Assembly: GCF_007752135.1 (NCBI RefSeq)
Contig: NZ_CP036298.1
Span: 6,262,859-6,326,858 of the forward strand
Reading direction: 5' to 3'
Length of the DNA: 64,000 nt
DNA from: Aureliella helgolandensis
GTDB taxonomy: Bacteria; Planctomycetota; Planctomycetia; Pirellulales; Pirellulaceae
This document shows, in pieces, positions 10,757 through 60,473 of the stretch. A model generated the notes under the pieces. It was not told where the DNA came from, searched no databases, and was given only the letters and a program-made list of their open reading frames with translations. The position numbers and the translations under genes were made by a program. Each line of letters opens with the position of its first letter. The stretch's first letter is position 1.

Positions 10757-11012
10757 TCTTTTTGGGCGTTTTCAGCAGAGTTAGTGGTTATGTCCGGAGC
10801 GGGTGCACGCCTCATGTTCCGCTGACGTGATCCGCTGGAGATTTCGGGGCAAGTTGCGTTTCAACACAGGCATGGTCCGTTCTGGGAACTCCAAGCGTTT
10901 ACGTTGGCGGAGCACTGGAATATATTGCGTTGGGCGTATTATGGCACACTTGCGCGATGCTGCACGGCATGAATCACCGATTGCTGGCCACTGCCCCCCG
11001 AATGTTCGCTGA

Positions 11013-12116: not shown

Positions 12117-12249
12117 CCTGTGGTTGCGTCTCCGGAACGCAAACATCATCGCAATCGCGGTACCATTTCGGCAATTCGCCCTGGTTTTCAGGCCTCCTTC
12201 GCCCCCCAGGCGTCGTGCTTTGCAACTGCGCCCACAGATTTTGCAAGCT

Positions 12250-12606
12250 TTAGGCTTCGGCAACCATCGGCAATAGCTCGTCGAGATTCACAGGCTTTCT
12301 CAGAATACGTCGCACTCCGAGGTCGACGGTACGTTTGGCGCCATCAGCCCCCGCAAAGGCAGTCACCATAATCGATACGATGTTCGGCTGAATTTTCAGT
12401 AGCTCGCTGTGCAAAGTTGCCCCGTCCATCCCGGGCATTTGGTAGTCCAACAGTGCGACGTCGTACTGATGATGGCCGGCTAGCCGCAGCGCTTCGGCGC
12501 CATCTTGGGCCGTATCGGTCTGAAAGCCCAGTTCGTCTAGGATATCCTTAATATTGGCTCGAATGTCGTCATCGTCGTCGACAATCAAGACACGCTTTTC
12601 AGTCAT
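12250..12606 (-). CDS. Single-domain response regulator (CheY/Spo0F-like)
   Basis: A 118-aa receiver without an output domain. It has the acidic triad (IVDDDDD), acceptor Asp54 in ALLDYQMPG, the conserved Thr in MVTAFA and Lys in LRKPV. It overlaps the start of the operon by 8 bp with the FixL-like kinase upstream, indicating translational coupling. It is probably a phosphorelay intermediate or a kinase-control subunit among the three kinases of this operon. Confidence 0.9.
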   Translation of the reverse strand: MTEKRVLIVDDDDDIRANIKDILDELGFQTDTAQDGAEALRLAGHHQYDVALLDYQMPGMDGATLHSELLKIQPNIVSIMVTAFAGADGAKRTVDLGVRRILRKPVNLDELLPMVAEA

Positions 12607-13774: not shown

Positions 13775-13776
13775 GC

Positions 13777-15249
13777 TTATGGGTTCTCCTGGCAAGATCG
13801 CTGCGGATTGCCATCACGTTGCTTCGACAACCGAAATTCAAAGCAGGCACCGGACGTCGACTCGACGACTCGAATTTCGCCGCCGTGAGCATCGATGATC
13901 CGTTGCACAATCGACATCCCCAATCCGGTACCGGTGCTCTTGGTTGTATAGAAGGGGTCAAACAACTGGCTTTGCTGCTCAAGCGTGAGCCCAGGACCAT
14001 TGTCACGCACTTCGACCAGCATTGTTTCTGGCCCGCTGCATTGACAGCGAAGGCTGATCTTGACGGGATCACTGCAGGCGGCGAGCGAGTTCTCGAATAG
14101 GTTTCGAAACACCTGTTCCATTTTCGCCACATCGACCTCTACGACGTTCTCACAGCCACATTCACCGTCATCCAAGACTGCTTCCCGGCCGCATCGAACT
14201 CCCTCCAAATCATCCCAGACGCGGCGCCACACTTCAGGCAACTGAACAGACCTTCGGCGGAGATGAATCGGTGCAGCGTACGCGCGGACTTCTTCCAATA
14301 AGGTATGCAAATCCCCTGTAGCTCGTGCGATAGAGTTCAGATCAACGCTCGCCTCCGAGTTCCCTGGGATCTCCAGAGAAAGCATCTCCACGCTGGCTTT
14401 AATCCGTTGCAGGGCGTTGCGACTCTCGTGTGCGAGTCCTGCCATCGTCTGCCCGATCGCGGCCAGTCGTTCGGACCGCATGGCCAGCTCTTGAGCGGTG
14501 ATCAATTCGGTCACATCCACACCGACGGCCAGTACTGAGGTAACCGCGTCTCCTTGGTCTTTGAGCGTCGTGTTGGACCAGCGGATTTGACGCTCTCGAC
14601 CATCTTTGGTGCGAATGGGATTCAGGAGCCCCGCCGAATGGGCTTCGTGAGCCGTCTCGAGAAAAACGCGACGCACCCGCTCTCTGTCCCGTTCGGGAAT
14701 ACAGTTTTCAAACCAGTCGCGACCGCGCAGTTCGTCGAAATCCCACCCCGCAATCTTGGTGAAGTACGGGTTGAAACGGCGGATAAGGCCGCTGAGATCC
14801 AGCACCAGAACGATCGCCTCGGCCGTGGCCAAAATTTTGTTCGCAAACTTCTGCTCGTGATGCAATTCAGCTTCCATGTGACGCTGGCGAACAATGCGAC
14901 GGACGCTTTGACGAAGTGCATCTGGGTTGATCGGTTTCAGAATGTAGTCGGCAACTCCGCTGCGAAATGCTTCGATCGTGCTGTCCATGTCGGCGTACCC
15001 CGTCACGACGATCACTTCCGCCCCAGGCAGCAGAAGCTGCAATTCGGGCAAGAATTCTCCAGAAGTCCCATCGGGCAAGCGCCGATCTAAGATGACCAAA
15101 GACACCGGTGCGGCCTCAAGCTGTCGCTTTGCTTCAGCCAGCGAAGCTGCGAACCGGACGCGATGACCGTCTAGCTCGAGAATGTCGCAAAGATTAGCCC
15201 GCGTGGCGGCGTCGTCCTCGACGAGCAGTATGTCCAACTCGTCTGTCAT
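13777..15249 (-). CDS. Hybrid receiver-PAS-histidine kinase, first gene of the signalling operon
   Basis: A 490-aa protein whose receiver comes first (residues about 1-120; acceptor Asp in LVILDRRLPDG), followed by a short coiled coil, a PAS domain (about 145-260), an H-box GLAHESRNALQR of the same Pro-less type as the kinase at 11-12 kb, and a HATPase domain (G1 RDNGPGL, G2 GTGLGMSI). The N-terminal receiver suggests that another kinase adjusts its activity, so the operon probably forms a relay rather than a simple pair. It is divergent from the USP gene; an 18-bp palindrome lies 54 bp upstream of its ATG. Confidence 0.9.
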   Translation of the reverse strand: MTDELDILLVEDDAATRANLCDILELDGHRVRFAASLAEAKRQLEAAPVSLVILDRRLPDGTSGEFLPELQLLLPGAEVIVVTGYADMDSTIEAFRSGVADYILKPINPDALRQSVRRIVRQRHMEAELHHEQKFANKILATAEAIVLVLDLSGLIRRFNPYFTKIAGWDFDELRGRDWFENCIPERDRERVRRVFLETAHEAHSAGLLNPIRTKDGRERQIRWSNTTLKDQGDAVTSVLAVGVDVTELITAQELAMRSERLAAIGQTMAGLAHESRNALQRIKASVEMLSLEIPGNSEASVDLNSIARATGDLHTLLEEVRAYAAPIHLRRRSVQLPEVWRRVWDDLEGVRCGREAVLDDGECGCENVVEVDVAKMEQVFRNLFENSLAACSDPVKISLRCQCSGPETMLVEVRDNGPGLTLEQQSQLFDPFYTTKSTGTGLGMSIVQRIIDAHGGEIRVVESTSGACFEFRLSKQRDGNPQRSCQENP

Positions 15250-41226: not shown

Positions 41227-42625
41227 TTGAAAACACCTTAATGCACGATGCTCGGTAGCGGACCTTTCTAGTCAGCTAACCCGATCGTGCGTTCACCGCC
41301 GATTCGGCATTCGATAACTTGATGCGATCCTAGAAGGTTTAAATGCCGTTGGGCATCGAGGCACAATTCTTAGCGTGGACAAGGCACTTGCGATCACCGC
41401 ACAGTTTCGATTCGTTTCAAGGGACTGCCCGCAATACACGCGCTCCCGTGCGGTGCGTTCCAGCGTCCGCCTAGTCACTGCAATCCCTCCTGCAATCCCT
41501 CCTGTAAGCCCTCCTGTAAGCCCTCCTGTAAGCCCCCACCTGCAAGCCCCTCTCGCAGCTCTCGATCAGCCCAACCGCCGACTTCCGCCGGGAACCGCCT
41601 GTTGCTTGAGGCATGGGGCGTTCTCGAGATCGAGGCTTACTTTCGGCACACTGGCCTCCTCGATCTCACGCCGAACATCCTAGAGACGAGGTGGAGAATC
41701 CTTAATAGCCTGCGGTGGACTTAGTCTGTCCACTCGTCAGTGCTGCGTTGGTTGTCAAACGACTTCGAGCGGTCTCAGTAGCTCACCACGAGCGGCCTAC
41801 GGTAGGACTGGTCGATTTCGAGAACAGTTTCAATCCAGCACTTTTCGTTAAAATCGGCTCGCCAATAGGCAAAGTTGAGGAACACCTTGCACTCTTCCCA
41901 CCACACAGCGACAAGAGCCGCCTAAGTTGACACTCGATGGATGCCATTTTAATCGAATAGTCGACTCTTGCGAGGGGCGACGACCTCAAGTAGTAAGCCG
42001 ATGGAAATCCTCAGGACACAGGGCTGATTGTTCGCCGATAGGTTGGTGCGCGTTGTCGACCCCACGCCGAAGGCCCCACAGCTCCACCCCAGCGGTTGGC
42101 CAACAGTCCGTCTTGAACCTCGACTTGATTCCTGAGTGGTCATTGTGCATGGCAGAACAGACCTACGATTGAATTGTCGTGAACGTCGCAATCGGTTCCT
42201 GCCTAGCATCCCACGTGTACTGCGACGAGTCCGAGCATGCTCAGTTTGGCAGATTTCCCCTAGAGCGACGGCAAATCCCATAGTCCACTGACTGCGATTT
42301 CCAGGACCACCACAGCCAAAGAACACGACTCTCTCCTATAGCAATTCCTGCAGAATGAGGACTCGGTTCGGCAGCACGAAGATGCGAAAACTCAAGATCG
42401 CCAGCGCTGAGGAATGGCATTGCGGTAGGGTAGACGCAATTGTGTTCACGCAGGTGGGCACCTCGGCCCTGCCCATCCTTATCAACGAATTTTCATTTCC
42501 TCGCTTCAGACAATACAGGCTGTATGCGAAAGACCTCAATCGCTTTAAACTGAACAGAGTCTTTGCGGGGCAGAGCAAACCAGTCCCTCCACGGCCTGAG
42601 TTCCCGATGCAGGGTAGGAGAGAAC
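41227..42625. other. Long gene-poor spacer
   Basis: No gene is supported in 1.4 kb. Short frames are of low complexity or lack ribosome sites. It holds a 12-bp tandem repeat and a short palindrome (CCTAC-G-GTAGG near 41798). Confidence 0.5.
41479..41538. repeat. Degenerate 12-bp tandem repeat, five units
   Basis: Units are TGCAATCCCTCC twice, TGTAAGCCCTCC twice and TGTAAGCCCCCA once. Being a multiple of three, it creates a Pro-Val-Ser-Pro frame by chance. Confidence 0.75.
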
Positions 42626-44173
42626 ATGACGGCGAATAAGACGAACAACTCTATTTCGAGCGACGATCTGATCCGGGCATTGAGTGAGTCGTCCGCGTAT
42701 CCGCATGCCGCCCAATCGCCAGTCACAGTGCATGAGACCCATATTTCATGGGTGTTTCTCGTTGGTGAGTTTGCCTACAAGGTCAAGAAACCAATAAAGA
42801 CCAGCTTTCTCGACTATGGAACGCTGGAAAAGCGACACAAATTCTGCGAAGAAGAGCTGCGGCTCGATGCACGCTATTCAGAGGGACTTTACTTAGAGGT
42901 TGTTCCCATCACGCTTGTCGACGGAACACCACGCATGGATGGACCGGGGGAACCATTTGAATATGCCGTCAAGATGTCTCGTTTTCCCGAAAATGCATTG
43001 TTAAGCCAGCGCCTTGAATTGGGCGCCCTCCCCAGTACCGAGATTCAACAACTAGCATCCACTGTCGCGAAATTCCACCAAGGCGCGTTCAAGATCGACA
43101 GCAACAGTCCATGGGGCAGGCCCGATTCAGTGCTTCGCAATGCCCTTGATAATTTCCAAGACCTGGAAGCAGCGGTCACTGGGGATGAGTTAACGACTTT
43201 GCAAGTCTTGAAGGCCTGGACTCTCGAGTACTTCGCGGAACATCAGCATGAGTTCCAACGGCGAATTGCGAACGGGTTCATACGCGAATGTCACGGCGAC
43301 TTACATCTCGCCAATATTGTCTATTGGAACGGTCACCTGATGCCGTTTGATGGTATCGAGTTCAATGAGGACTTTCGCTGGATCGACGTCCTGAGCGATG
43401 CCGCATTTCTCGCGATGGACTTTGCGGCGCGTGGGCACCTGGAATTGTGCCGCAGCTTCATTAACGCCTACTTAGAACAGACTGGCGACTACGCGTCACT
43501 CACCTCACTACGGTGGTACTTGGTGTACCGCGCCCTGGTGCGAGCTAAGGTCGCAGCATTGAGAGCCGACCAGGCTGGGCAGAGCGAAAGCGATCGACAA
43601 AGGGCCCGGGAAGACTGCGCGCAGCACATCGACTTGGCGCATCGATTTTCAGTGCGTGAGGAGCCCTGCTTGTGGATTACGCATGGGTTCAGCGGAAGCG
43701 GCAAAACGACACAAAGCGAGATTTTGGTTCAACGGCGAGACGCAATACGCGTGCGAAGCGATGTCGAGCGGAAGCGTTATTCGGGGCTAGAAAGGAATGA
43801 GCGTCCGGATCAAAAAACGCAGCAAGAACTGTATTGCGAGTCAGCCACGCATGCTACCTACGAACGCCTTCGCCAACTGGCAATCGGGATTCTTCGCGCA
43901 GGTTATTCAGTGGTGGTGGATGCCACGTTCCTAAAGCGTAACGACCGTCAGCTGTTCAAAAGTACGGCGGATAGTGAGGGCGTGCGTTTTGCGATTCTTG
44001 ATTGCCATGCCGACGAACAAACACTTCGGCAGCGCGTCGCCGACCGCGTGGCGAAAAACAACGATGCCTCCGATGCGAACATTCGAGTACTAGAGGAACA
44101 ACTGGCTTCGCACGATCCATTGTCGGAACGTGAACTCAAGTATATTTGCGGTATACCAAGTAAGTGTCCCTAG
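42626..44173 (+). CDS. Two-part kinase: aminoglycoside-phosphotransferase-like domain fused to AAA/zeta-type ATPase
   Basis: A 515-aa cytoplasmic protein. The N-terminal part (about 20-330) is APH-like: nucleotide lysine region GEFAYKVKKPIKTSF, catalytic HGDLHLANI near residue 225 and DGIEF as metal-binding acidic motif. The C-terminal part (about 345-510) is a P-loop kinase with GFSGSGKTT near 353, as in zeta-toxin or polynucleotide-kinase-like proteins. AGGAG before the ATG at 42626 decides the start; the open frame reaches 42563. The family is widespread and its substrate unknown. Neighbours are the Na/Pi transporter and D-lactate dehydrogenase. Confidence 0.88.
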   Translation: MTANKTNNSISSDDLIRALSESSAYPHAAQSPVTVHETHISWVFLVGEFAYKVKKPIKTSFLDYGTLEKRHKFCEEELRLDARYSEGLYLEVVPITLVDGTPRMDGPGEPFEYAVKMSRFPENALLSQRLELGALPSTEIQQLASTVAKFHQGAFKIDSNSPWGRPDSVLRNALDNFQDLEAAVTGDELTTLQVLKAWTLEYFAEHQHEFQRRIANGFIRECHGDLHLANIVYWNGHLMPFDGIEFNEDFRWIDVLSDAAFLAMDFAARGHLELCRSFINAYLEQTGDYASLTSLRWYLVYRALVRAKVAALRADQAGQSESDRQRAREDCAQHIDLAHRFSVREEPCLWITHGFSGSGKTTQSEILVQRRDAIRVRSDVERKRYSGLERNERPDQKTQQELYCESATHATYERLRQLAIGILRAGYSVVVDATFLKRNDRQLFKSTADSEGVRFAILDCHADEQTLRQRVADRVAKNNDASDANIRVLEEQLASHDPLSERELKYICGIPSKCP

Positions 44174-45762: not shown

Positions 45763-48700
45763 TCACTTTTTCGTCATTTCATGTACCAAACTGAGCATTG
45801 CTTGTGCATCGATGGGCTTGGAGAGATAGTCGTTGCAGCCCGCTTCCAGACATTTGCTCATATCGCCTTGCATGGCGTCTGCGGTCAACGCAATGATCGG
45901 ACCGGTAAAGCCGAGCGCCCGCATTTGTCGGGCCGTTGAATAACCATCCAGAATCGGCATCTGCATGTCAAGCAGAACCAGGTCGGGGCACGTCGCACTA
46001 TCAAAACAGGCGGTAATATGATCAATAGCATGCTGCCCGTCTTCGCATTCTTCCACCGTAGCGCCGGCTCCGGTGAGAATGCGTTTGCTCAGAAAGCGAA
46101 TGTCGCGTCGATCATCAACAATCAGCACATGACAGGATAATTTCGATGGCGGAGCCAGCTTTAAAAACTCTTCTACATCAGAATTGGATTCATCGTATTC
46201 CACCAGCTCGGAATCGGCGATCTCCCCGGTCGCGATGTCAATCGTGAACGTGCTGCCAACGCCCGCAGTGCTACTGACTGAGATACGTCCGCCCAGTGTT
46301 TCTGCTAGTCGCTGACTGATGGCAAGTCCTAAGCCAGTTCCCCCAAAATTTCGGGTGACACTCGCGTCCCCCTGCGAGAAGGGCTTGAACAAGCGTGGCA
46401 GCTGCTCGTCCGAAATGCCGATACCTGTGTCAACTACATCGAACTGCAGCTGTTGAGTCTGGCGATTGAAGCGAACACGGATCTGGATGCGTCCCTTAGG
46501 CGTGAACTTGATCGCATTGCCAATGAGGTTGATGAGGATCTGCTTGAGTCGCTTGGCATCCGAATGGATCGTTTTGGGTAGTTTTCCATCGTACTCAACA
46601 TCTAACGTCAATCCTCCTTCCTTAGCGCGGACCTCCATGATGCTACGCACATCTTCAACCAAACGATGCGGCTCAAAGCGTTCGCAATCCACATCCAGTT
46701 TATCGGCTTCGATTTTGGAGAGGTCCAAAATATCGTTAATAATCTGGAGCAGGTAGTGGCCGTTACGACGAATGGTTTGCAAGTGCTGGGCAGCTTCCTC
46801 CTGCTCGACCAAACCCTTCAACAGCTCCGCATAGCCTAAGATTGCGGTCATTGGTGTTCGAATTTCATGCGACATGTTCGCTAAGAACGCGCTCTTGGCT
46901 TCATTGGCAGCCTCGGCAACCGCACGTGCTTTCTTCAATTCCACTTGCGACTCATGTCGTTCGTGGGCATCGATGACTGACCCCACGTACCCGAGGAACT
47001 TGCCATCCGCATCAAAGCGAGGGCGTCCAGCATCGATAACCCATCGATAGTGGCCATCCGCGGTACGCAGTCGAAAATCAATTTCGTATGCGTCCCTTCG
47101 ATCGGCCGCTTCCAAGAATGAATTTCGCGCCATTTCCCGATCTTCAGGATGAATCGCATCAGTCCAACCTAAGCCCAACCCTTCGCCCTCTGTTTGGCCA
47201 GTGAAGTCATACCATCTTTGCGAATGAAAATTGCAGTCGTAGTTCTCGTCGGTAACCCAAATCATCGCCGGCGCGGTATTGGCCATATTGCGAAAACGCT
47301 CTTCGCTTTGCGCCACCGCCAACTGCATTTCCCGTAGTCGCGTGATGTCCATCACGATCCCCGAACAGGTCTTGGTCCCATCGTTGAGGATGACTACCGA
47401 CCCCCGTCCCTGGAAATATCTGGTTGAACCGTCTGGTAATTCCACGGTGTAGTCCTCACTGAACGTCCCGCCTCCTTCCAGCAACTCAGTAATCGATTTT
47501 CGAACTCGCTCTCGGTCTTCATCCACCATGCGTGAGGTAAAGTCGTCGTAAGCGATGGGGACTCCAACGTCGAAACCAAACATCCGCGTCAGGCTCTCAT
47601 CCGCCGTAAACGCGCCCGTATGTAAATCAAAACTCCATGACCCGACACGACTGACAGACATGCTCAATTCGAGCAAACGCTTCGCCTGCGTCAATTCGGT
47701 GGCTGCGGCATATCGCTCTGAGATATCGACCCCGGAAGGAATCAGGTATTCGACGTTACCTTCATCATCGAACACCGGCGCGATCATGAAGTCAATCATC
47801 ACTCCTTCGTCGCCGTGGGCGAACAGCGACACGTCGTAGCGCACGACTTCGCCCCGCAACGCTTGCTGCATTGCATCACGCGTCTTTGCAGCGACTGCGG
47901 GATCATAGCTCCACCAAGGTGCTTCCGCAAAATGCTTTCCAATAACGTCCTCGCGCCGAGTATGCGCGATTTCCAGCGAACTATCGTCGACTTCCAAGAG
48001 CATTCCATCGCGATCGATAACGCCGACCAGCCCCAATTGGTTGTTGATCACGCGCCGTAGATGAGCTTCGCGATTTGCCAATTCCTCTTCGGACCGGGCT
48101 CGTTCGATTCGAATGCCGACGCGATCGGCAACTTCCTGCAACAGCTTGCACTCTTCGGCGGTCCATGCGTGAGGCTCAGCAGCCAACGCAGAAACAACGA
48201 ATTTAGTACCACGATCGGTGACATAGGCTGAGTTACAAAAGGCGCCGATATTGAACTGGCGAAAGCTCTCAACGATGCGTTCGTCTCGCCCCAGAACCTG
48301 CGTATCATTTGAAATCACTTGCTTTCCCGCAATCAATGCCTTGCGTTCGGTTTCGTCATGGAAGTTCCGAACTGGGTGTTTTCCAAGCAAGCTTGGTTCA
48401 TCGCGTTGGTGATAGTCGCACAAGATGTTCGCAATTTCCCCTCCCTCGTCGAACTCGACCAACAGGCAGCGCGATAACCCCAGGAAGTTAGCCGTCAGCC
48501 TGGTGGAAACATCCATCAAACTGTCGACCGATGCCAATTGAACAAGTTCAGTTTGCAAATCGGAAATAAACGCAAGATTTAGTTCTTCCGCCTTACGCTC
48601 CGAAATATCTTGCACCAAACCGGTCACTTGCAAAGGAACACGATCCCGATCACGGTGAATGACGCCGCGTTCTTCCACCCAAATCATGCGGCCGTTGTGC

Positions 48701-51700
48701 GGTTGCATCAGTCTGAATTCAACACAATGGCTATCGGTATCGCTGGCGAATTCCTCCTCGATCCGTGCCGCAACCGACTCCCGGTCGTCCGGATGAACAA
48801 GCTGTCTATAACTAGCTAGAGTGCCGTCGAACTCTCCCTGGCGACAACCAAACATGGAATACAGCATCTCGGACCAATCCACACTTCCCGAGCTGACATC
48901 CCATTTAAATGTCCCCATCTTGCCAGCGTCGAGTGCCAACATTAGGAACTGCTCTCGCTCGATCACGGCTGCTTTCGCGGCATTGCGTTCGCTAATATCG
49001 ACGGCAGATGGAATCAGGTGGGTAATCGTACCATCGCTCGAGCGAACGGGGCTGATCATGAAGTCAATGGTGATTCGCGCTTCGTCGGCCATGCGAGCCA
49101 TCACATCGTAGCGCACCGTCTCTCCCGCCGCGGCTCTTCGCACCGCATCCTGCAATCGACTGATGGATACCTGGTCAAAGTTCCACCAATACGAGTCCCA
49201 AAACTTTTTCCCAATGACTTCGCTGCGATCGAGTTTGGCGGAGTTCATTGCAGCGGCATTAGCTTCCAAGAGCGTACCATCGACGTCCAAAACTCCGATC
49301 ATGAAGAGCGTGTTGTCTATTACGCTACGCAAATGCGACTCGCGGTCGACGAGCTCCAATTCCCATTGCTTGCGTTCAGTGATATCTGTAGCCACGGCCG
49401 TAATGCTGAGCGGATAATGGGACTCATCCCGCCGAATGACTCCCCGTCCGGAAGTCCAGACGATACGATGGTCATCTCCGCGAATGATTCTGAAATCCAT
49501 TTCATAGGAGAGACAGCTTCCGGTGAAGACCGCCTCAAGTCGCTCTGTAACGCGAGCACGATCATCGGGATGAATCAGTCTGAGAAAACCATCCCGCGTA
49601 TTAGGGAACTGCTCTTCGGTATAGCCGAAAATCTTATACAGCTGGTCTGACCAAGTCACTCGATCGGTACTAACATTCCAGTGCCAAGTCCCGAGGCGGC
49701 CCGTATCCAGTGCCATCTCCAATCGCTGCTCGCGATCTAGCAGGCGTTGCTCCGACTCCTTGCGGGCGATGCATTGTGCCATTGCGTCGGCCATTGGAAG
49801 CAGTTGCTCAAACACCTCCGGTTCGATGCGATGTTTAGCGATCAAGGCGACAACACCGACGACGCGGTGCTCGACAATCAGCGGATAGCCGGCGAACGCC
49901 ACGATCTCATTTTGCAAAGCCCACTGGGAATCGCCGATCTTCGGTTCATGGGGCGCATCGTTAGACAGCAGAGCTTGCCGTGTGGCGGCAATTTCACCGA
50001 TTTTAAATTTACCCACAGAAACGCGACGGTCCGCTCCGCCGTGTTGTAGCGCCATGCCTGCAGTAGCGGTTGCCTCTAAGACTTGCTCCGCTCCATTCAA
50101 CAGCCAAACGCGAGCGGAGACCGCATCCAGTCCGTCGACAATCTTCTGGCAGCAGATATCAAGAATCTCATTCAACGGTGCTTCCCCCGCCAGTGATAAC
50201 GCTATGGAAGCATGCAGGGCCGCCAATTCTGCGCGCTGCAGCAGGTTGGCTTCGGCCTGTTTCCGCTCGGTGATATCGCGTAGATAGCCGGTGAAGAACG
50301 GCAAATGATCACGACCGCGTGAGACACTGATGGCCAACTCAATAGGAAACAAACTGCCATCGGCGCGCTGGGCCGTCAGTTCAACGCGCTGCCCAATAAT
50401 ACTTGAGCTACCTTCCCTCAGAAACCGAATCAATCCTTGCCGGTGTGAGTCGCGATAGTCCTCAGGAACGATCGTATCGGCTAACGATTTCCCGACAACG
50501 TCTGCAGCAGCATAACCGAAGGTCCGCTCCGCGGCAGGATTGAAGTCTACAATCTGTCCATCGGTGTCCATCGTAATAATGCTATCGAGCGCAGATTCTA
50601 GAATTGCTGTCTTGCGAGCTTCTTCATTTTGCAGAGTTGCGTGCAAGCGGCGCTGACGGATAAACTGCCCAATTTCACTACCAACAGACGCCAGCAATTG
50701 AATCAACTCAGGCTCGTGCACAAGCCGGCGAGTGGTGAAGATCTCGATCACACCTTTGAACTTATTTCCAACTACGATTGGTGTTCCAACACCACTAAAC
50801 AAGTCGCTTTCGCTTGCCGCGGCAGAGCGGAGAAAAACGCCAGTCTCCTGCACATCACCAAACCAGACCGGCTTTCTACGCTTCCACACCCGTCCGGGTA
50901 AACCTTCACCGATCGCCAGACGGGTCTCACGACTGAGGTCAATGAACGGCCGACGCAAGTCATCAATTGCATCCGTCTCGACACAGTTCAAGAATTCCCC
51001 ACGACTGTCGATCCTCCAGAGGAGGCAAACTTCCGCGGACAGCGATACACGCAGTGCGTTGAGGACACGCGGAATGACCGTTTCGAATGAATCGGCATCC
51101 GCCAAAAGTTGAGTTACCGCATGCGCCGCCGCCAGTCGCATGCGCAGCTTTTTTTGTTCGGTGATATCGTAGAACGTGACGACTAACCCGTCACGTTGCT
51201 TCCTTTCATTCACGTACGGCTGAATCCGTCGCATGTACCAAAGCCCATCCTGAGTCTCTACTTCATCTTCGACGACCAAGTCACCGACCAGCGACAGGTC
51301 GTCGGGAAAGGGGGGCATCTCGACCGAGGTGTGTGTGATGTGTCGCAGTGGGCGCCCAATATCAGTTGAAATCAGGTTGTAAAGCGATGTAACACCCGGC
51401 GTAAAGCTGCGAATGTGCATCTCATTGTCGAGAAACAGCGTGGCAATCTTCGTGCTGTCCAACAAATTCCTTTGATCGGACTCCGACTGCGCAATTCTAC
51501 CGAGTACAACTTGAATCTCTTCTTTTGAGGTCTCCAGCTCTTCATTGGCCGATTGGAGTTCCTCGTTCATCGACAAAAGCTCTTCGTTCGAAGATTTCAG
51601 CTCCTCATTGGCTGCTTCCATGTCCTGCAGCGTACGTTCTAGATCGCTCCGCGTGGTCTCAAGTTCGCGCTCCATGTGGGCGATGATCGAGTCAGCATCC

Positions 51701-53640
51701 TGATTGCCCGTCGCGGTCGACTCCGGCAACAAGTCGTCGTCGCGGCGGACGGGTTCACCAGAATCGTGAAAGACGACCATCAGAATTTCATCGTGCTCCC
51801 CCAATTGCGGCATCGGCTGCACGGTCAACATCACTCGCTGGATTGAATCACCATCGTGAAGCGAAAGGTTATCGTGCGTAACCTTCTCACGTTTCTTGAC
51901 CGCTTCAGCGATGGCCGCGCGCAGACCAATCCGCAGGCCAGGCTTGGCCATCTTGACGATACTGTTGTGGAAATCGCCTCCCGAAATCGACAGATATTTC
52001 TCAATACCGTTGGACGCATTCAGGATTTGGCCTGATTGGTCAATGATCACTGCTTTCGGTGCGAACTCATCCAGCAAGATCCGCTGCCGGATACCATTGA
52101 GGTCGGTCGCCGCATCGGGTTGGAGCCCGCCCGGCTGAATGACTTTCACTTCACCATGACGTAGCGCCATGATACTGGACGAACTGACAGCAGTTCCCTT
52201 TCGCTGCGAGATGCGAAATTTGGTATCGATGGGACGAAAAAGCTCTCCGTGTGAGGAGATCGTTTCGCTCGGGCCAAGAAACAAGTACCCGGAAGGACGT
52301 AGCGCATAGTGAAAAAGCGGAATCAGTTTTTCTTGCAGATGGGTCCCTAAATAGATCAGCAGATTGCGGCAGGCAACTAAGTCTTGCCGCGAAAAAGGCG
52401 GATCACTAATCAAATTATGCTTGGAAAACAGCACGATATCGCGAATCGGTTTTGCGACTTGGTACCGTTTGCCCCGTTTGACAAAAAACTTTTTGAGCCG
52501 TTCGGGACTGACGTGGTCTTCAATGCCCATGGGGTAGAGTCCCGCTCGCGCAATTTGCAGCGCGCGCTCATCAATATCGGTCGCAAAGATTTGCACACTG
52601 GGAGCTTGGTCCAAGCTCTCGGCGTATTCGCGACAAAGAATTGCCAACGAAAAGGCCTCTTCCCCGGTGCTGCATCCGGCCACCCAGATGCGGACGATTT
52701 CGCCAGTTGCCTTGCTTTCAAAAATTTTCGGCAACACGGTGGTCACCAGCGACTCAAACGCCTCGGGGTCCCGAAAAAAGGCCGTCACGCCAATCAGCAG
52801 CTCTCGGAAAAGGGCGTGCGTCTCTTCTTCGCTAGCTTGCAAACGCACCAAATAATCGGCAGCCGTTACAATGCGTGCAATTTGCATCCGCCGCTGGATA
52901 CGGCGTACCAATGAGTTGATTTTGTAGTGCTGAAAATTGTGCCCGGTGATGGACAGCAAGTGTTCGGCAATGCGGGGGATCGCTTCGCCAATCTGCTTCT
53001 GCAGGCGCCGCACATGGGACGCATCACCAAACTCATCAATATGGCAAACATATCGCAACAACTCACTCGCAATTTCGCTTGGCCGACACACATGATCGGC
53101 AACGCCAGTCGTCGCAGCGCTGCGTGGCATGCTATCGTATTTGGCCGACGTGGCATCCTGAGCAAAGGTCAAACCACCTGTATCGCTGATCGCCTTCAGC
53201 CCGATCGCACCATCGCTGCCCGCGCCCGACAACACAATACCGACCGAAAGGTCTCCCTGATCTTCGGCCAGCGAAAGGAAAAAGTGGTCGACCGCCGACA
53301 ACGGACTCTCATCAACGGCCGGCACCACCGGACGGATCGTGCCGTTCTTGATCTCCACAAATTGATCGGGGGGCGCGACGTAGACACACCCCGGCTTCAG
53401 CTTCTTGCGTCCGCTGATCTCGACGACTTTCATCTCCGTCGCCCCGGATAGCAATTCAGCCAACAGCGATTGACTGGACGGGTCATGGTGTTGCACGAAT
53501 ACGACCGCCAGGTGCGATGGCATGCCCAAATGGGCAAGCAGTTCTGTAAAAGCTTCGAATCCGCCAGCCGATGCCCCCACACCTACCGTGATAAGCCGTC
53601 CCGCAGTTTGAGAAGAAAATCTAGGATCGCCCTGCTTCAT
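45763..53640 (-). CDS. Giant CheB-CheR-multi-PAS/GAF hybrid histidine kinase with receiver
   Basis: A 2625-aa soluble protein. Order: CheB methylesterase (about 15-205; triad Ser24, His51, Asp143 intact), CheR methyltransferase (about 215-490, IRIWVAGCSTGEEAFSLAIL-type SAM motif), PAS, a long coiled coil (about 650-720, repeated NEEL units), PAS, then GAF, PAS, GAF, three PAS, GAF and three PAS domains, HisKA (SHEIRTPMTAIL near 2257), HATPase (GTGLGLAI) and a C-terminal receiver (acceptor Asp in LVLLDMQMP). No membrane segment. The ATG at 53640 is chosen near the CheB start; a TTG at 53679 is possible. Several PAS modules are pairwise similar, indicating internal duplication. Partners and signals are unknown. 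Confidence 0.9.
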   Translation of the reverse strand: MKQGDPRFSSQTAGRLITVGVGASAGGFEAFTELLAHLGMPSHLAVVFVQHHDPSSQSLLAELLSGATEMKVVEISGRKKLKPGCVYVAPPDQFVEIKNGTIRPVVPAVDESPLSAVDHFFLSLAEDQGDLSVGIVLSGAGSDGAIGLKAISDTGGLTFAQDATSAKYDSMPRSAATTGVADHVCRPSEIASELLRYVCHIDEFGDASHVRRLQKQIGEAIPRIAEHLLSITGHNFQHYKINSLVRRIQRRMQIARIVTAADYLVRLQASEEETHALFRELLIGVTAFFRDPEAFESLVTTVLPKIFESKATGEIVRIWVAGCSTGEEAFSLAILCREYAESLDQAPSVQIFATDIDERALQIARAGLYPMGIEDHVSPERLKKFFVKRGKRYQVAKPIRDIVLFSKHNLISDPPFSRQDLVACRNLLIYLGTHLQEKLIPLFHYALRPSGYLFLGPSETISSHGELFRPIDTKFRISQRKGTAVSSSSIMALRHGEVKVIQPGGLQPDAATDLNGIRQRILLDEFAPKAVIIDQSGQILNASNGIEKYLSISGGDFHNSIVKMAKPGLRIGLRAAIAEAVKKREKVTHDNLSLHDGDSIQRVMLTVQPMPQLGEHDEILMVVFHDSGEPVRRDDDLLPESTATGNQDADSIIAHMERELETTRSDLERTLQDMEAANEELKSSNEELLSMNEELQSANEELETSKEEIQVVLGRIAQSESDQRNLLDSTKIATLFLDNEMHIRSFTPGVTSLYNLISTDIGRPLRHITHTSVEMPPFPDDLSLVGDLVVEDEVETQDGLWYMRRIQPYVNERKQRDGLVVTFYDITEQKKLRMRLAAAHAVTQLLADADSFETVIPRVLNALRVSLSAEVCLLWRIDSRGEFLNCVETDAIDDLRRPFIDLSRETRLAIGEGLPGRVWKRRKPVWFGDVQETGVFLRSAAASESDLFSGVGTPIVVGNKFKGVIEIFTTRRLVHEPELIQLLASVGSEIGQFIRQRRLHATLQNEEARKTAILESALDSIITMDTDGQIVDFNPAAERTFGYAAADVVGKSLADTIVPEDYRDSHRQGLIRFLREGSSSIIGQRVELTAQRADGSLFPIELAISVSRGRDHLPFFTGYLRDITERKQAEANLLQRAELAALHASIALSLAGEAPLNEILDICCQKIVDGLDAVSARVWLLNGAEQVLEATATAGMALQHGGADRRVSVGKFKIGEIAATRQALLSNDAPHEPKIGDSQWALQNEIVAFAGYPLIVEHRVVGVVALIAKHRIEPEVFEQLLPMADAMAQCIARKESEQRLLDREQRLEMALDTGRLGTWHWNVSTDRVTWSDQLYKIFGYTEEQFPNTRDGFLRLIHPDDRARVTERLEAVFTGSCLSYEMDFRIIRGDDHRIVWTSGRGVIRRDESHYPLSITAVATDITERKQWELELVDRESHLRSVIDNTLFMIGVLDVDGTLLEANAAAMNSAKLDRSEVIGKKFWDSYWWNFDQVSISRLQDAVRRAAAGETVRYDVMARMADEARITIDFMISPVRSSDGTITHLIPSAVDISERNAAKAAVIEREQFLMLALDAGKMGTFKWDVSSGSVDWSEMLYSMFGCRQGEFDGTLASYRQLVHPDDRESVAARIEEEFASDTDSHCVEFRLMQPHNGRMIWVEERGVIHRDRDRVPLQVTGLVQDISERKAEELNLAFISDLQTELVQLASVDSLMDVSTRLTANFLGLSRCLLVEFDEGGEIANILCDYHQRDEPSLLGKHPVRNFHDETERKALIAGKQVISNDTQVLGRDERIVESFRQFNIGAFCNSAYVTDRGTKFVVSALAAEPHAWTAEECKLLQEVADRVGIRIERARSEEELANREAHLRRVINNQLGLVGVIDRDGMLLEVDDSSLEIAHTRREDVIGKHFAEAPWWSYDPAVAAKTRDAMQQALRGEVVRYDVSLFAHGDEGVMIDFMIAPVFDDEGNVEYLIPSGVDISERYAAATELTQAKRLLELSMSVSRVGSWSFDLHTGAFTADESLTRMFGFDVGVPIAYDDFTSRMVDEDRERVRKSITELLEGGGTFSEDYTVELPDGSTRYFQGRGSVVILNDGTKTCSGIVMDITRLREMQLAVAQSEERFRNMANTAPAMIWVTDENYDCNFHSQRWYDFTGQTEGEGLGLGWTDAIHPEDREMARNSFLEAADRRDAYEIDFRLRTADGHYRWVIDAGRPRFDADGKFLGYVGSVIDAHERHESQVELKKARAVAEAANEAKSAFLANMSHEIRTPMTAILGYAELLKGLVEQEEAAQHLQTIRRNGHYLLQIINDILDLSKIEADKLDVDCERFEPHRLVEDVRSIMEVRAKEGGLTLDVEYDGKLPKTIHSDAKRLKQILINLIGNAIKFTPKGRIQIRVRFNRQTQQLQFDVVDTGIGISDEQLPRLFKPFSQGDASVTRNFGGTGLGLAISQRLAETLGGRISVSSTAGVGSTFTIDIATGEIADSELVEYDESNSDVEEFLKLAPPSKLSCHVLIVDDRRDIRFLSKRILTGAGATVEECEDGQHAIDHITACFDSATCPDLVLLDMQMPILDGYSTARQMRALGFTGPIIALTADAMQGDMSKCLEAGCNDYLSKPIDAQAMLSLVHEMTKK

Positions 53641-55073
53641 GGGTCGCTCAGTTAGGGTGTTTCGGTTGGTAAGGAACAATCAGTCCTAAGGTACCGTCCT
53701 CGATTTCCCCGGAAATCTTGTACGAACGGGATTCTGTCGAACTCTGTTGCAGAATATGGCTAGAACTGATTGAGCGATCCCACGTGAGGATCTAGCTTTG
53801 CTGCATCGCCTCGCTGGGGCGTCCGCAATTCTATCGTCTGACCACACCCTCGAATATCCTGCAGTTGTTGGACCGCGACCAAGCCAAACGGTCATTTCAC
53901 TCTAACCATTGTTTCGCACGCGCCGGTTCGGTGAAAGTCCGCAGTAGGCGAGAGCGGCAATTTACCCGGAAGTTACCGTCGTTACGGCGGCGGAACATTC
54001 GCCTTATACGAATCGCTCTGCCAGCCCCCGCGGGGACATTCCTACACCCCAGGAGTTTCGCAGAATCGACCAACTTTAGACCTCTCTGCCTACCATTTCT
54101 GCGGTTGCCAGTGATACGCGGCAACGCGGACCGCTACGGCACTACCGGTTGGTTGCCAAGCTTCCCTAGCACCGACTGGAAGAATTGGTGCGTTCGCTGC
54201 GTGTGCCCCATCGTTAACCGAGTATGGACTCCAGCTCGATGCACGAGGGACGCGACTGCGTTTCCTGCCATCATTTTTCTCGCTGGCGGATTCGTGTTAA
54301 CAGGTCGCGGACTGACCACCCTGGTCGCTGGCCCACCAATCGCAAGCTCAATTTGAGGAGTGGGGCGCGATCCGTGATTCACACGACTGGCTGCGTCCAC
54401 ATCGTCACTCGCTGAGGAAATTCTTGCAAACGTCGTACACCAGTAACTCAAGGCCCCAGATACGGCGGATCACGTAAGCCTAGCCAGGCCCAACCTTACT
54501 AATATCGCCCAAGCCAACATCGCCCAAGCGTGACCGGCCAAGCGTGACCGGCCAGAAAAAGCAATTGCTGCCCACTCTGGCGATAAAAACTTGCGCAGAG
54601 CGTTCGCCCCTTGCAATGAGCCGTCCCTAGCGATCCACTCCGCGGGGGCGGCCACGGTTACCCTAGACTCCACCTGCCGCCCTCCAGCCTTGCAGCTCCC
54701 ATCCCTGCCGAACTGAGAAGCCGATTGCTCTGGTTCAGCAGCCTACTGCAGGCATCCGTCGGGTGTTGGGCATTGCTTCCAAACTTATAGTGCTCCCAAA
54801 CTAATAGATTTGGCCTGAGAATGAGGAGCCCACTGCCGACTCTGAGAAATTTCGTCGTTGCCAGCCCCCAATGCCTTGCACTCGCAGCCAACACCGCATT
54901 TCCCTCTCAGAGTTTGGTATAAGGTTTGCATAGCCCAATGATTTGAGTCAGAACTTCAGGATAGGCATTGGATCCCAAGCCGCCTTGGCGGCGAACGCCT
55001 CCACCAACCTTTCAAGGTGATACTGGCGGACGAAATCTGACGAACCCTACTAACAGAAGCTATCCCGTACAGC
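53641..55073. other. Divergent spacer between the two CheB-CheR kinases
   Basis: No gene is supported in 1.4 kb; the longest frames (for example 53865-54356, plus) have random composition. It must hold the promoters of both kinase genes, but I see no clear -35/-10 or -24/-12 pair. Confidence 0.5.
54527..54554. repeat. Two tandem copies of a 14-bp unit
   Basis: AGCGTGACCGGCCA occurs twice without a gap, preceded by two ATCGCCCAAGC copies 15 bp apart. Confidence 0.7.
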
Positions 55074-58000
55074 ATGGATTTGCCACACGACAATTCGACC
55101 AATACGGCAGCAGGCTGCCGGGAGCTGCATGTTGTTGGAGTCGGTGCATCGGCAGGCGGGTTGGAGGCTCTCGAAGCATTCTTTCGCGCCATACCAGCTG
55201 ATAGCGGGATGGCGTTTGTCGTGGTCCAGCACTTGTCTCCAGATTTTAAAAGCCACATGGAGGAATTGCTAGCCCGGCAGACCAACATCCCAGTCTACCG
55301 AGTCGACCATGGCGTGAAGGTCGAACGAAATTGTATTTACCTCATTCCAGCCAAGATGGAGATGGTCATTGACGACGGCAAGTTGTTGTTGACCGAAAGG
55401 AGTTCGGACCGCTCGCTGGTCCACCCCATCGACACCTTCTTCCAGTCGTTGGCGACCGACATCGGGCGTCACGCGATTGGCGTCATTTTGTCGGGCACCG
55501 GCAGCGATGGGTCTCGTGGAGTGAAGTCGATCCACGCAGCGGGCGGTTTGGTAATCGTCCAAGATGAAGTGTCTGCCAAATTCGACGGAATGCCACTTAG
55601 CGCGCGTGAGACAGGTGCCGTCGACCTCGTTTTGACGCCATCCGCCATTGCCGAAGCGTTGGTCCGCTATACGCAGGAAGGAATTTCACGCGAGAAGCTG
55701 GCCGAGGAAGATCTGGCTTTTGGCAGCATGGAAGAAGAAGCTCAAATCTTACATCTACTGCATCGTAAAAGTTCCCTCGATTTCGCCCAATACAAATCCA
55801 GCACCGTGGGTAGGCGGATTTATCGTCGCTTGCAACTCTCAGGTCTGCAGCACATGGCCGAGTACGTGGAACGGTTGATGGTCGATGATCACGAGTTGAA
55901 CGAACTTTACAAGGATTTGTTGATTGGAGTCACCAAGTTCTTTCGTGACAGCGAGGCTTTCGAAGCGCTACGTGCACACGCGCTGACCAAGTGGTTATCT
56001 CGGCCCGCCCCCAGGGACATGTTGCGAATCTGGGTAGCCGCATGTGCCAGTGGCGAAGAGGCCTATTCAATCGCGATTCTACTCGACGAGGAAATGCGCA
56101 GGCAAAAAATCCACCTGGACTTCAAAATCTTCGCCACGGACGCTCACAGTGGTTCTCTAAATCTTGCTGGCAAGGGCATCTACTCCGTGGATGCGGTGGC
56201 CGAGTTGTCTCCCGAGCGAATTGAACGCTACTTTTCTCAAACGTCCAATGGTTATCAGATCAGCCGTGACATTCGCAACAGGGTGGTATTTGCTACGCAC
56301 AATATTCTCAACGACGCGCCCTTCACGCAGATGGATTTGGTCACCTGTCGCAACATGCTGATCTATCTCCAGCCGGCGGCACAGAAAAAAGCGTTGTCCA
56401 TGTTCCACTTCGCGCTTAAGGCCGACGGATTTTTGTTTCTGGGCCCTAGTGAAACCTGCGGAGAATTAGCGGGTGAATTTCAATCGATCGACCAACGGTG
56501 GCGGATCTTTACCAAGCGACGCGACGTTCGATTGCCGGTCACTACTGGAGTGCTCGTCAAGCGTCGTAGTGAAAAGCTGCCTTATGCCTCGCTCACTCCG
56601 CCAACACCCAAGAGCAATCGCGTTGACGCGGAGTTGTTGAGCGTCTACGAAGAACTGCATGCCTTGAAAATGGGCTGCAGCATCTTAGTCGGCGAAAATG
56701 GCGAGATGCTGCATCTCTTCGGAGATGCCGAGCGATTCCTGCGACCACGCCGAGGTAGACCCTCCAATCTGCTGCTTGAGATGATCCACGAATCCCTCAA
56801 ATCATCCATAGCCTCAGCTTGGCATCAAGCCGTCACGAAGCGAAAGACGGTTCGATACGCATCGACGGCCTTCACCGGTGCGGCTTCCCCCGAGTCGATT
56901 CGCATCACCATGCAACCACTCAATGACAATCTGAGTCGACCTTGCAATGTCTTGGTCGAGTTCGAACCGGCCTTAGAAACGGCACCACCGGAGGCCCCCA
57001 TCCCAGACCAGTCGCAGCAGGAACATGATCAATCGCGAATGGAATCGCTGGAGTCGCAATTGCAATCTTCGCAAGAGAACTTGCAGGCCACAATCGAGGA
57101 GATGGAAACCTCCAACGAAGAGTTGCAAGCTTCCAATGAAGAGTTGATCGCATCCAACGAGGAGCTGCAGAGCACCAACGAAGAGCTGCACAGCGTCAAC
57201 GAGGAGCTTTACACCGTTAACGCTGAACATCAACGACGCGTCGAAGAGTTGGCTCTGGCCAATGACGACATGGACAACCTGCTGGCAACCACGCGCGTCG
57301 GAGTTATCTTCCTCGATGACGGACTTTACATTCGAAGATTTACGCCAGAGATCGCCCGTGTGTTCCGTTTGGAACAGCACGATACTGGTCGGTCCATGGA
57401 GCAATTTGCTCATGTTTTGAACCATCCCAGCTTGCTGGAGGATTTGCAGGCCGTCCTCCAGCAACAGGAAGAACGTGAGCTTACCGTCCGCGATCGAAAC
57501 GGCACCCCCTACCTACTTCGAATATTGCCTTATCAGAGTGGCGACGCTACTCGCGGCGTGGTGTTGACCTTGATTGACATCTCGTCACTAACCGCCGCTC
57601 AATCGGAGAGCAATCTGCGGCAGCTCGCGATCGAATCGGCCGTCAACGGCATCATCATCTCGGACCCGTTGCAATCTGGAAATCCAATCACCTATGCCAA
57701 CCAGGGATTCCTCGCCCTGACCGGTTATGAGCGTGATGAAGTCTTGGGACGCAATTGCAAATTTCTGCAAGGTGCGAAAACCGATCCAGAAACGATTCAG
57801 ACCATTCGCGCTGCTCTCGATCGTGGTGAACCTGTCCGCGTTACGCTGCTCAATTATCGCAAGGATGGCAGCGAATTTTGGAACGACCTCCAAATCACTC
57901 CCGTGTTTGACTTGGATGGAGAAGTTCGCCATTTCGTCGGTGTGCAACACGACATCACCAACCAAATGACGGCCCAGAAGGCGCTGCAAGAGGCCAACGC

Positions 58001-59183
58001 GGCAAGTCTGCGCGCTAACGAAGCCAAGAACTCGTTTCTTGCCACCATGTCTCATGAACTGCGCACGCCACTGACCGCCGTTCTCGGATTTGCTGATATC
58101 TTGCGAAGCGAATCGGAGGAACCCGACTATCTCGAAAAAGTCGACACGATCAAACGGAACGGAACGTACTTGTTGGCTTTGCTCAACGACATTTTGGATC
58201 TGTCCAAAGTCGAAGCTGGCAAGATGCGATTCGAACGACAACGTGTCGACATTCGACGCGTGATGGCAGATATCGAAAACTTGATGTCCAATCGCTCCCA
58301 AGACGCGCAAGTTGCACTGCAATTCGAATACGCAACGCAGCTGCCCGCAGAGATCACCGCTGACGAAGTCCGTGTTCGCCAAATCCTCGTCAATCTGATT
58401 AGCAATGCGTTGAAATTCACGGAAGCCGGCCACGTCACCGTCAGTACTGTCGTCAATCACGACGCCCGAGGCAGAAGATTGGAAATTTCGGTAGAGGATA
58501 CAGGGATTGGAATCACCCCCAAGCAGATGGAACGACTGTTCCAACCGTTCAGTCAAGCGAACAAGCAAACAACGCGAAAATTTGGGGGCACGGGTCTCGG
58601 GCTAAGCATTAGCAAGCGGCTCGCCGAGGGCATGGGGGGCACGATCCTTGCCGCAAGTCGACTCGGCAAAGGGAGCCGGTTCACATTGCTACTCCCACTG
58701 TCTCAATCCGACAGCGAGATCACCAGCGAGGCGAAGGCCCCTGGCAGTACGCCGCCGCACTCAGGGCACGTGCACACCAAATATCCTCAGATTAATTCAC
58801 GCGTTCTGCTGGCAGACGACCGCCGGGATGTCTGGCAGGTCGGCAAGTACTTCTTGGAAAAATGTGGCGCAGATGTCACGATTGTCGAAAATGGCCAGCA
58901 AGCAGTCACAGCGGTGAAACGATCCGTTGATGAGGGAACCCCCTTCCAACTTATTCTGATGGATATGCAAATGCCGGTGATGTCAGGCCGAGAAGCTGTC
59001 GCCGTGATTCGAGAACAAGGTATTGCCACCCCCATCATTGCCCTGACCGCCGATGCAATGGAAGGAGAGCGCGAAGCCTGCATTGCAATGGGCTGCAACG
59101 AATATTTCCCGAAACCCATTGACGGTCCACGCTTGATGAAAATGGTCGCCACACTAATCTCGGCAGATTCGAATTCGTCGTAA
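55074..59183 (+). CDS. CheB-CheR-PAS-LOV hybrid histidine kinase with receiver, putative blue-light sensor
   Basis: A 1369-aa soluble protein. CheB (about 15-205; Ser26, His53, Asp145), CheR (about 225-495; [17 protein letters not shown]), a PAS-like segment, a coiled coil of NEEL repeats (about 655-745), a PAS domain (about 745-840), a LOV domain (about 845-965), HisKA ([12 protein letters not shown], His994), HATPase (GTGLGLSI) and a receiver (Asp1297 in LMDMQMP). The LOV domain has GRNCKFLQG with the photoreactive Cys895, then [13 protein letters not shown] and HFVGVQHD, which hold the flavin-contacting Asn residues and the signalling Gln. The start has no strong ribosome site. It is divergent from and partly paralogous to the giant kinase. 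Confidence 0.93.
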
Positions 59184-59585: not shown

Positions 59586-60473
59586 ATGCTCTCTACTGTC
59601 CGTAAAGCGATCGAGCAATTCTCGCGAGACGACTGCCCAACGCTGGCAGCATCGTTAGCCTACTACACACTCTTCGCGATGCCTCCGCTCTTGTACCTAT
59701 TGGTATCGATTGTCTCGCTCGGAATGTCGATCACCTACGAGCACGATCAGGCAGTGGATCGAGCGAGAGCTTTTATGGAGCAACAAGCGGCACAACTAAT
59801 TGGCAACCAAGCGGCTGCCCAAGAAATCGGCACGATTATTCGGAACAGTAGCAATCCGAACGGGACTTGGTGGAAGTCATTCTTGAGCCTGGCGGGAGTC
59901 CTCGTGGGAGCAACAGGTTTGCTCACAGTGCTGCAAAGTTCCCTAAACCGAGTTTGGCGCGTCCAACCACGCGAGGGTGCCTTCACCAAACGATTTTTGT
60001 TGAAACGGCTGTTATCACTGGCGATGATCCTAGTCTTCGGCCTACTTCTCCTAATTTCGTTTGTGGTGGCAACAGTACTCAACCTGCTGACGGAGTATTT
60101 GACGCAGCAAATGGGGGTTGAAGGCAACTGGCCTGCACTCGTCAATCAGCTGGTGAGCTTCGCATCGACTTGGCTATTCTTCGCTGCGGTCTTTCGCTGG
60201 ATGCCGGATGCACTGGTTAGCTGGCACAGTGCGCTGGTGGGCGGTCTCTTCACGGTGGTGCTCTTCACCCTGGGCCGCTGGGCACTATTCACCTACTTAT
60301 CCTATTCGAATCCCGGACAAGAACTCGGTTCTGCAGCAGCTTCCCTGGTAGTGATTTTGCTGTGGGTCTACTATTCCTCGCTCATTTTGCTCTTCGGCGC
60401 GGAGTTCACGTTCAACTTGAATTCGCAGCTGGCTACGCCGGAAAACGGTGCTGAACGCACCACCCCGAAATAG
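59586..60473 (+). CDS. YihY/BrkB-family inner membrane protein
   Basis: A 295-aa protein with six membrane helices. Family features: DDCPTLAASLAYYTLFAMPP at the N-terminus, the middle signature QSSLNRVWRVQPR, and the C-terminal SAAASLVVILLWVYYSSLILLFGAEFT split by a short turn. The molecular role of the family is unsettled; it was once mistaken for ribonuclease BN. The ribosome site is weak. It is isolated: no operon partner is seen on either side. Confidence 0.92.
   Translation: MLSTVRKAIEQFSRDDCPTLAASLAYYTLFAMPPLLYLLVSIVSLGMSITYEHDQAVDRARAFMEQQAAQLIGNQAAAQEIGTIIRNSSNPNGTWWKSFLSLAGVLVGATGLLTVLQSSLNRVWRVQPREGAFTKRFLLKRLLSLAMILVFGLLLLISFVVATVLNLLTEYLTQQMGVEGNWPALVNQLVSFASTWLFFAAVFRWMPDALVSWHSALVGGLFTVVLFTLGRWALFTYLSYSNPGQELGSAAASLVVILLWVYYSSLILLFGAEFTFNLNSQLATPENGAERTTPK

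Follow-up and report, generated by a model that had tools for sequence, protein, structure and literature searches.

How one bacterial protein could join a blue-light sensor to a kinase and to both enzymes of chemotactic adaptation, and what those enzymes would act upon, are the questions raised by a gene of Aureliella helgolandensis (Planctomycetota; Pirellulaceae). The gene lies on the plus strand of a 64,000-nucleotide stretch, hereafter the window (NZ_CP036298.1, positions 6,262,859 to 6,326,858). Judged from sequence, its product is probably a blue-light photoreceptor hybrid histidine kinase, in all probability located in the cytosol, that has adaptation enzymes of its own. The sequence gives good support to a kinase controlled by light, whereas a methylation so controlled is an inference.

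Domain organisation

The coordinates, strand and position of Cys895 given in the original prediction were recomputed and agree. That prediction placed an intact CheB triad, a CheR domain, a LOV domain, a kinase and a receiver in a single chain, which is borne out by Pfam matches over cut-off and by the presence of the key residues; its domain list was right as far as it went and left out the PAS_10 domain and the coil preceding it. The Pfam matches for all eight domains of the 1369-residue protein exceed their cut-offs. The features are as follows.

55074..59183, plus strand: whole open reading frame (ORF), predicted CheB-CheR-coil-PAS_10-LOV-HisKA-HATPase-REC hybrid photoreceptor kinase, ATG start, 1369 residues
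55134..55661, plus strand: CheB_methylest domain, residues 21–196, with Ser26, His53 and Asp145 (Pfam; fold matches 1chd and 3sft)
55743..55883, plus strand: CheR_N helical domain, residues 224–270 (Pfam)
55929..56504, plus strand: CheR S-adenosylmethionine (SAM)-binding methyltransferase domain, residues 286–477, with Arg291, Glu328, Asp356 and Asn427 (Pfam; fold match 5ftw)
57036..57278, plus strand: predicted coiled coil between CheR and PAS_10, residues 655–735, candidate methyl-accepting helix (coil prediction, alignments)
57270..57581, plus strand: PAS_10 domain, residues 733–836 (Pfam)
57615..57959, plus strand: LOV domain, residues 848–962 (Pfam PAS_9 at 859–962; NCBIfam and PDB matches, residue check)
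57756..57758, plus strand: Cys895, predicted flavin mononucleotide (FMN) photoadduct cysteine (motif, alignment)
58023..58220, plus strand: HisKA dimerisation and phosphoacceptor domain, residues 984–1049, with His994 at 58053–58055 (Pfam)
58362..58703, plus strand: HATPase_c kinase domain, residues 1097–1210 (Pfam)
58803..59147, plus strand: receiver domain (Response_reg), residues 1244–1358, with Asp1297 at 58962–58964 (Pfam)

The LOV domain and its linkage to the kinase

The best solved relatives of the LOV domain are 9vf7, a chain named 'histidine kinase' with the motif GRNCRFLQG (E-value=6.6e-40), and YF1 (4gcz; E-value=3.9e-39). The NCBIfam YtvA family matches residues 852–975 (E-value=4.6e-46), though below the family's whole-protein cut-off. 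Of nine flavin-site positions in YtvA numbering, among them the Cys and the signalling Gln, eight possess the expected residue, and at the ninth Lys896 replaces Arg. No change is seen at Cys, Asn, Gln or the second Arg. The complete LOV signature announced earlier, with photoadduct Cys895 and the signalling Gln, is thus upheld at eight positions, the Lys-for-Arg deviation having gone unflagged. Because of the structural matches and these eight positions, the domain likely binds flavin.

The kinase half possesses the HisKA His, N, G1, F and G2 boxes, and the receiver has its D-D, D, T and K positions. Cys895 and His994 are separated by 99 residues, a spacing shared by the four members of the planctomycete family in which LOV is fused directly to HisKA; a motif scan of the whole fetched set gave 99 in seven of eight LOV-HisKA fusions and 106, one heptad more, in the eighth. 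These values correspond to the discrete heptad-wise spacing of coiled-coil signal helices described in PMC6798134. From the DIT motif of the LOV domain to His994 runs a 34-residue helix of standard length. An AlphaFold model of residues 845–1369 (mean predicted local distance difference test score, pLDDT, 75.4; predicted template modelling score, pTM, 0.45) has YF1 as its best PDB match and a single helix from 962 to 1013 running through His994.

YF1, a chimera of the YtvA LOV domain and the FixL kinase, resembles the window protein in its helix-joined LOV-HisKA arrangement and in its Cys, Asn and Gln positions. It differs in being engineered and in lacking CheB, CheR, PAS_10 and a receiver, and alignment of the two gives a linker two residues shorter and a LOV loop two residues longer in the window protein. 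A prediction of light polarity from linker length was dropped, since the offset from YF1 is two residues and not a heptad; the YF1 polarity rule is not transferable to so shortened a linker. Hybrid histidine kinases that combine LOV with a receiver exist as a class and share the LOV-HisKA-HATPase-REC half of the protein; the CheB-CheR and coil-PAS_10 half is not known from them.

Relatives with the same parts

The original prediction knew of no characterised protein with this domain order and proposed a domain-order search. Among 392 genomes sampled from the phylum, judged by the loci reported and the stretches retrieved, a LOV-bearing CheB-CheR kinase occurs in at least three: the window genome (G000), G307 and G266. 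Among 397 genomes sampled from the class, a PAS_10-LOV query matched at E-value=1e-32 or better in 68. In the part of these matches that was read, CheB, CheR, a Cys-bearing LOV domain and a kinase were found in one ORF in at least 12 genomes, the window genome included (G000, G638, G307, G648, G266, G701, G674, G714, G647, G689, G728 and G514). G638 has the same order and the ten further class genomes have additional sensor domains or sequence around LOV, so that the order is not unique; among the 11 relatives only G638 shares the minimal order exactly. Pfam scans of G307, G266, G638, G701, G647, G689 and G648 revealed further PAS domains beside LOV in all but G638, and GAF domains as well in G266; for G674, G714, G728 and G514 the assignment comes from the positions of BLAST domain matches and from spacings into which extra domains would fit. 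No study of a CheB-CheR-LOV protein was found in the open-access literature, such proteins possibly being listed in subscription journals or in the supplements of LOV surveys, and to that extent the earlier statement stands. The planctomycete CheB-CheR-LOV kinases are a sparse family and not a singleton.

None of the 12 proteins departs from the CheB triad, from the five kinase-box positions or from the receiver positions that can be read; in G648 (L205) the contig ends ahead of the final two of these receiver positions. The four CheR positions are kept save for E-to-Q changes in G701, G674 and G714, and the LOV positions save for Lys-for-Arg in the window protein, His-for-Arg in G638 and Leu-for-Gln in G648. 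The LOV Cys is present in 12 of 12, a count that is not independent, Cys having been a selection criterion.

Two further proteins, both gammaproteobacterial, share the CheB-CheR-PAS_10-LOV order and have GGDEF-EAL in place of kinase and receiver. In L076, from a gammaproteobacterial metagenome-assembled genome, CheB, CheR and LOV were located by motif in one ORF ending in GGDEF-EAL, at least one such ORF being present among the 80 loci listed in the contig scan. The other (L255:1862-6412, plus strand; WP_140906637.1; CheB-CheR-PAS_10-LOV-GGDEF-EAL) is specified by a plasmid of Shewanella sp. LC6 and was among the matches listed, 40 of 204 matching records, in a plasmid search. This plasmid is typed as conjugative, and its protein is annotated just as an EAL protein.

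Descent and exchange of the sensor

Trees were built by a quick method, with support from the Shimodaira–Hasegawa-like approximate likelihood ratio test (SH-aLRT) and no bootstrap. In the CheB-CheR tree (60 proteins) a set of 15 rows (SH-aLRT 95) comprises all 12 family proteins and three LOV-free ones. In the kinase-receiver tree (44 proteins) all 11 usable LOV rows fall in a 16-row set (SH-aLRT 100) with five LOV-free rows. Since both trees group the LOV proteins, the enzyme half and the kinase half agree broadly. On the CheB-CheR tree, which did not include the Shewanella protein, L076 branches apart from the planctomycete family. The tree of the LOV domains themselves had few supported branches.

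LOV-free CheB-CheR-PAS_10 kinases of many Planctomycetota share the CheB-CheR half, the NEEL coil discussed below, PAS_10 and a kinase with the window protein; they differ in having another PAS domain or no sensor at the place of LOV, and many are of a different kinase lineage. One from the same genus, in G754, is 68% identical to the window protein in CheB, 56% in CheR, 56% in the kinase and 69% in the receiver; the corresponding values for G152 are 64, 51, 57 and 64%. G754 is among the closest relatives in both enzyme and kinase domains. A search of the genus gave a match at E-value=1e-90 or better in 12 of 15 genomes, and in the four genus genomes checked (G754, G543, G751 and G752) no member of this gene family carried a LOV domain. 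Given such close LOV-free kin, the sensor is evidently exchanged or lost as the enzymes and kinase stay.

Some observations weigh against a light-driven kinase. Neither G754 nor G152 has a LOV match between PAS_10 and the kinase, and since both keep the enzymes and the kinase, light is evidently not essential to the lineage. In GRNCKFLQG the residue beside the active Cys is the rare Lys896 where Arg is usual: among 123 distinct LOV domains from the fetched loci, for which the Cys was the entry condition, this residue is Arg in 114, Ser in four, Lys in two, Asp in two and Gly in one. G648, although a family member, has Leu at the signalling-Gln position. The multi-domain model gave template modelling (TM) scores of only 0.27–0.46 against two YF1 chains, so low that the orientation of its domains is unreliable. 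The first three would fit a domain that is a non-photochemical PAS or a redox-only sensor, which may bind flavin while the kinase answers another signal, as would hold for the close kin that have ordinary PAS domains there. We consider this very unlikely, since Cys895 is kept along with Asn, Gln and the second Arg, and since functional LOV photoreceptors are the best matches in both sequence and fold.

Under the favoured interpretation as a photoreceptor kinase, blue light would produce an FMN-Cys895 adduct and re-orient Gln958, as expected of a complete LOV chemistry. The change would travel along the 34-residue helix to His994 and shift the balance of kinase and phosphatase activities. The attached receiver would then take up phosphate from His994 at Asp1297 and hand it to a partner.

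The CheB and CheR domains

The residues Ser26, His53 and Asp145 were located by motif and by alignment to relatives; their catalytic roles, like the positions of the SAM-site motifs in CheR, are the standard ones for these enzymes. In sequence and in fold this half of the protein matches solved CheB and CheR proteins, and an AlphaFold model of residues 14–500 (mean pLDDT 87.7, pTM 0.64) matches CheR 5ftw and CheB 1chd and 3sft. That the catalytic positions of both enzymes are intact is supported by these comparisons. The original prediction, of a blue-light-controlled protein that could both phosphorylate and methylate or demethylate partners, is thereby supported in part, and any light-governed methylation or demethylation of partners would be a further step. 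The N-terminal regulatory receiver of canonical chemotaxis CheB was not found by Pfam, the CheB domain beginning at residue 21 and the sole receiver being C-terminal; the latter may govern CheB in its stead.

A coil of glutamate pairs

Bacterial chemotaxis keeps its memory in reversibly methylated glutamates, a modification which, to our knowledge, is established only in chemoreceptors. Between CheR and PAS_10 lies a predicted coil of [AS][ST]NEEL heptads. In the window protein there are five tandem NEEL heptads, with Glu pairs at 682/683, 689/690, 696/697, 703/704 and 710/711. These pairs are nearly invariant in 59 of 60 CheB-CheR hybrids and the preceding residues 636–658 are variable; the sixtieth hybrid (L093), in which two NEEL words were not seen, is the exception. 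Across 95 CheR-bearing proteins, a single one lacking residues in this region, the ten core columns hold 932 Glu and eight Gln in 940 cells. With 18 CheR-bearing proteins added (113 rows), Glu fills 1,099 of 1,112 cells, the remaining 13 being eight Gln, two Asp and one each of Lys, Ala and Gly.

Such a coil could be the substrate of its own enzymes, a methyl-accepting helix methylated by the attached CheR and demethylated by CheB, in cis or across the dimer. Its alternative is that the glutamates are structural or form a docking surface and that CheB-CheR has another target or a scaffold role, a reading toward which we lean slightly. Repeat homogenisation can keep tandem repeats alike, as the structural reading would have it; the near-uniformity of Glu in the 113 rows is nonetheless judged stricter than a surface coil needs, and the enzyme active sites are conserved.

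When Asn is put at a and Leu at d by eye, the Glu pair falls at b and c; on our reading its second Glu would then be at c, the position at which PMC6829392 puts known methylation sites. The published consensus of methyl-accepting chemotaxis proteins (MCPs), [ASTG][ASTG]xx[EQ][EQ]xx[ASTG][ASTG], has no match in the window protein; across the 59 proteins it occurs ten times in the coils and three times elsewhere, so rarely as to favour a structural role. A relaxed form (two small residues, x, two E/Q, xx, two small), with one x before the pair, has four matches in the window protein. In the same 59 proteins it was found 211 times in 4,658 coil residues vs five times in 78,467 others, and over 200 composition shuffles the mean count was 1 and the highest 5; the contrast is partly built in, the motif having been picked after the coil was seen and the coil having been cut by its EE words, and it is inflated by the repeats.

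Gln as the preferred replacement of Glu, a would-be mark of methylation sites, looked strong in the 95 proteins and was no longer clear in the 113 rows. In the smaller set, among columns of at least 75% Glu, Gln made up 71 of 113 non-Glu residues in 17 coil columns vs 15 of 58 in seven columns outside (Fisher p 5e-6, ignoring relatedness). In the larger set its share was 46 of 93 in the coil vs 14 of 41 in control columns (p 0.13), and the non-Glu residues of the core are not all Gln. Both points speak for a structural coil, and because of this recount our estimate for the coil as substrate, already low, was lowered a little further.

Paralogs without the enzymes bear on both readings. A 1403-residue PAS_10 ORF of the same genome that lacks CheB-CheR (L067:2823-7031, plus strand) has lost five of the ten core glutamates, which argues against a structural coil. 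A further search for such paralogs gave no clear second case, just L302 and L305, both of which keep the pairs without CheR in the same readable ORF, as a structural coil would. At L302 (1042-5190, minus strand) the chain is naturally split into a CheB-CheR ORF and, immediately after it, a coil-PAS_10 ORF with ten of ten core glutamates; in L305, the upstream part of which lies beyond the contig end, the core is nine Glu and one Gln. A parallel to the eroded paralog is a chemoreceptor without methylation sites in a pathway without CheB and CheR, described in PMC6391922. Such evidence supports the coil as the enzymes' substrate and does not prove it; that the NEEL coil is a methyl-accepting helix we consider rather unlikely. 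It is equally doubtful that CheB-CheR hybrid kinases, the light sensor included, are self-contained adaptation machines by way of this coil. The last and weakest step of the proposed working would be the writing and erasing of glutamate methyl esters by CheR and CheB, which could give the light response a memory or gain control.

Chemotaxis genes elsewhere and neighbouring genes

The flanks of the gene contain the following.

45763..53679, minus strand: 2638-residue CheB-CheR-PAS_10-GAF/PAS-HisKA-HATPase-REC hybrid kinase, rich in PAS and GAF domains (Pfam)
59586..60473, plus strand: BrkB/YihY-family membrane protein, downstream (homology; functional link putative)

CheR domains occur at three places in the genome, namely beside a stand-alone CheB, in the window protein and in its 2638-residue neighbour, and full CheB domains occur at the same three. 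A CheB fragment with two in-frame stops lies at C1:1929543-1929782 (minus strand). Two MCPs are present, both outside the window at a distance of millions of bases from the hybrid; one of the two has the stand-alone CheB and CheR within 6 kb, and a 931-residue ORF near those enzymes resembles CheA by eye. Because stand-alone forms of CheR and CheB exist alongside these two MCPs, methyl-ester signalling is probably present in the cell. CheB and CheR of the hybrid might act in trans on the two MCPs, both of which carry candidate methylation sites, so that light would feed into chemotaxis adaptation as phototaxis. We consider this somewhat unlikely, since the stand-alone pair in all likelihood already serves the MCPs and both MCP genes are so remote from the hybrid gene.

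The 2638-residue neighbour, in which BLAST found no LOV match, is a possible partner of the photoreceptor kinase. That it is a recent tandem copy is ruled out by the CheB-CheR tree, on which it groups with the gene downstream of the LOV gene in G701, far from the LOV family; its kinase half is nonetheless in the same 16-row set as the LOV rows. The two genes lie head to head, separated by a 1.4-kb gap (53680–55073) in which two ORFs were scanned and gave no Pfam match. Promoter and terminator scans did no better than shuffles.

The flanks of ten relatives were compared, G648 being on a short contig and G728 left out. In G701 the next gene downstream of the LOV gene specifies a protein of the neighbour's kind, and in G674 and G647 a shorter PAS hybrid kinase is head to head with the LOV gene; with these three of the ten, a conserved pairing with a second PAS hybrid kinase is partial. 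G647 also has a BrkB/YihY homolog about 3 kb beyond its LOV gene. In G689 the LOV-CheB-CheR gene has, next to its 3' end and in the opposite orientation, a stand-alone 201-residue CheB ORF (L251:14680-15282, plus strand).

Elsewhere in the A. helgolandensis genome, about 97 kb away, a second LOV protein is specified, a 409-residue LOV-SpoIIE phosphatase (L066:5377-6603, plus strand). In the window, too, a sigma-54-type response regulator clusters with three PAS histidine kinases (9299–15249, minus strand), and there is an AAA_33 protein with a weaker zeta-toxin-family match (42563–44173, plus strand).

Implications

A light-driven kinase joined to both enzymes would offer a clean, switchable input with which to ask what CheB-CheR hybrids do, and the strictly conserved Glu-pair coil that it carries suggests one specific answer, within reach of mass spectrometry. 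The LOV-bearing and LOV-free kin, built on one enzyme and kinase scaffold, form a natural set of sensor exchanges. The coil is the most interesting open point of this hybrid kinase: if it does accept methyl groups, chemotaxis-style memory would be built into a photoreceptor kinase outside the MCPs.

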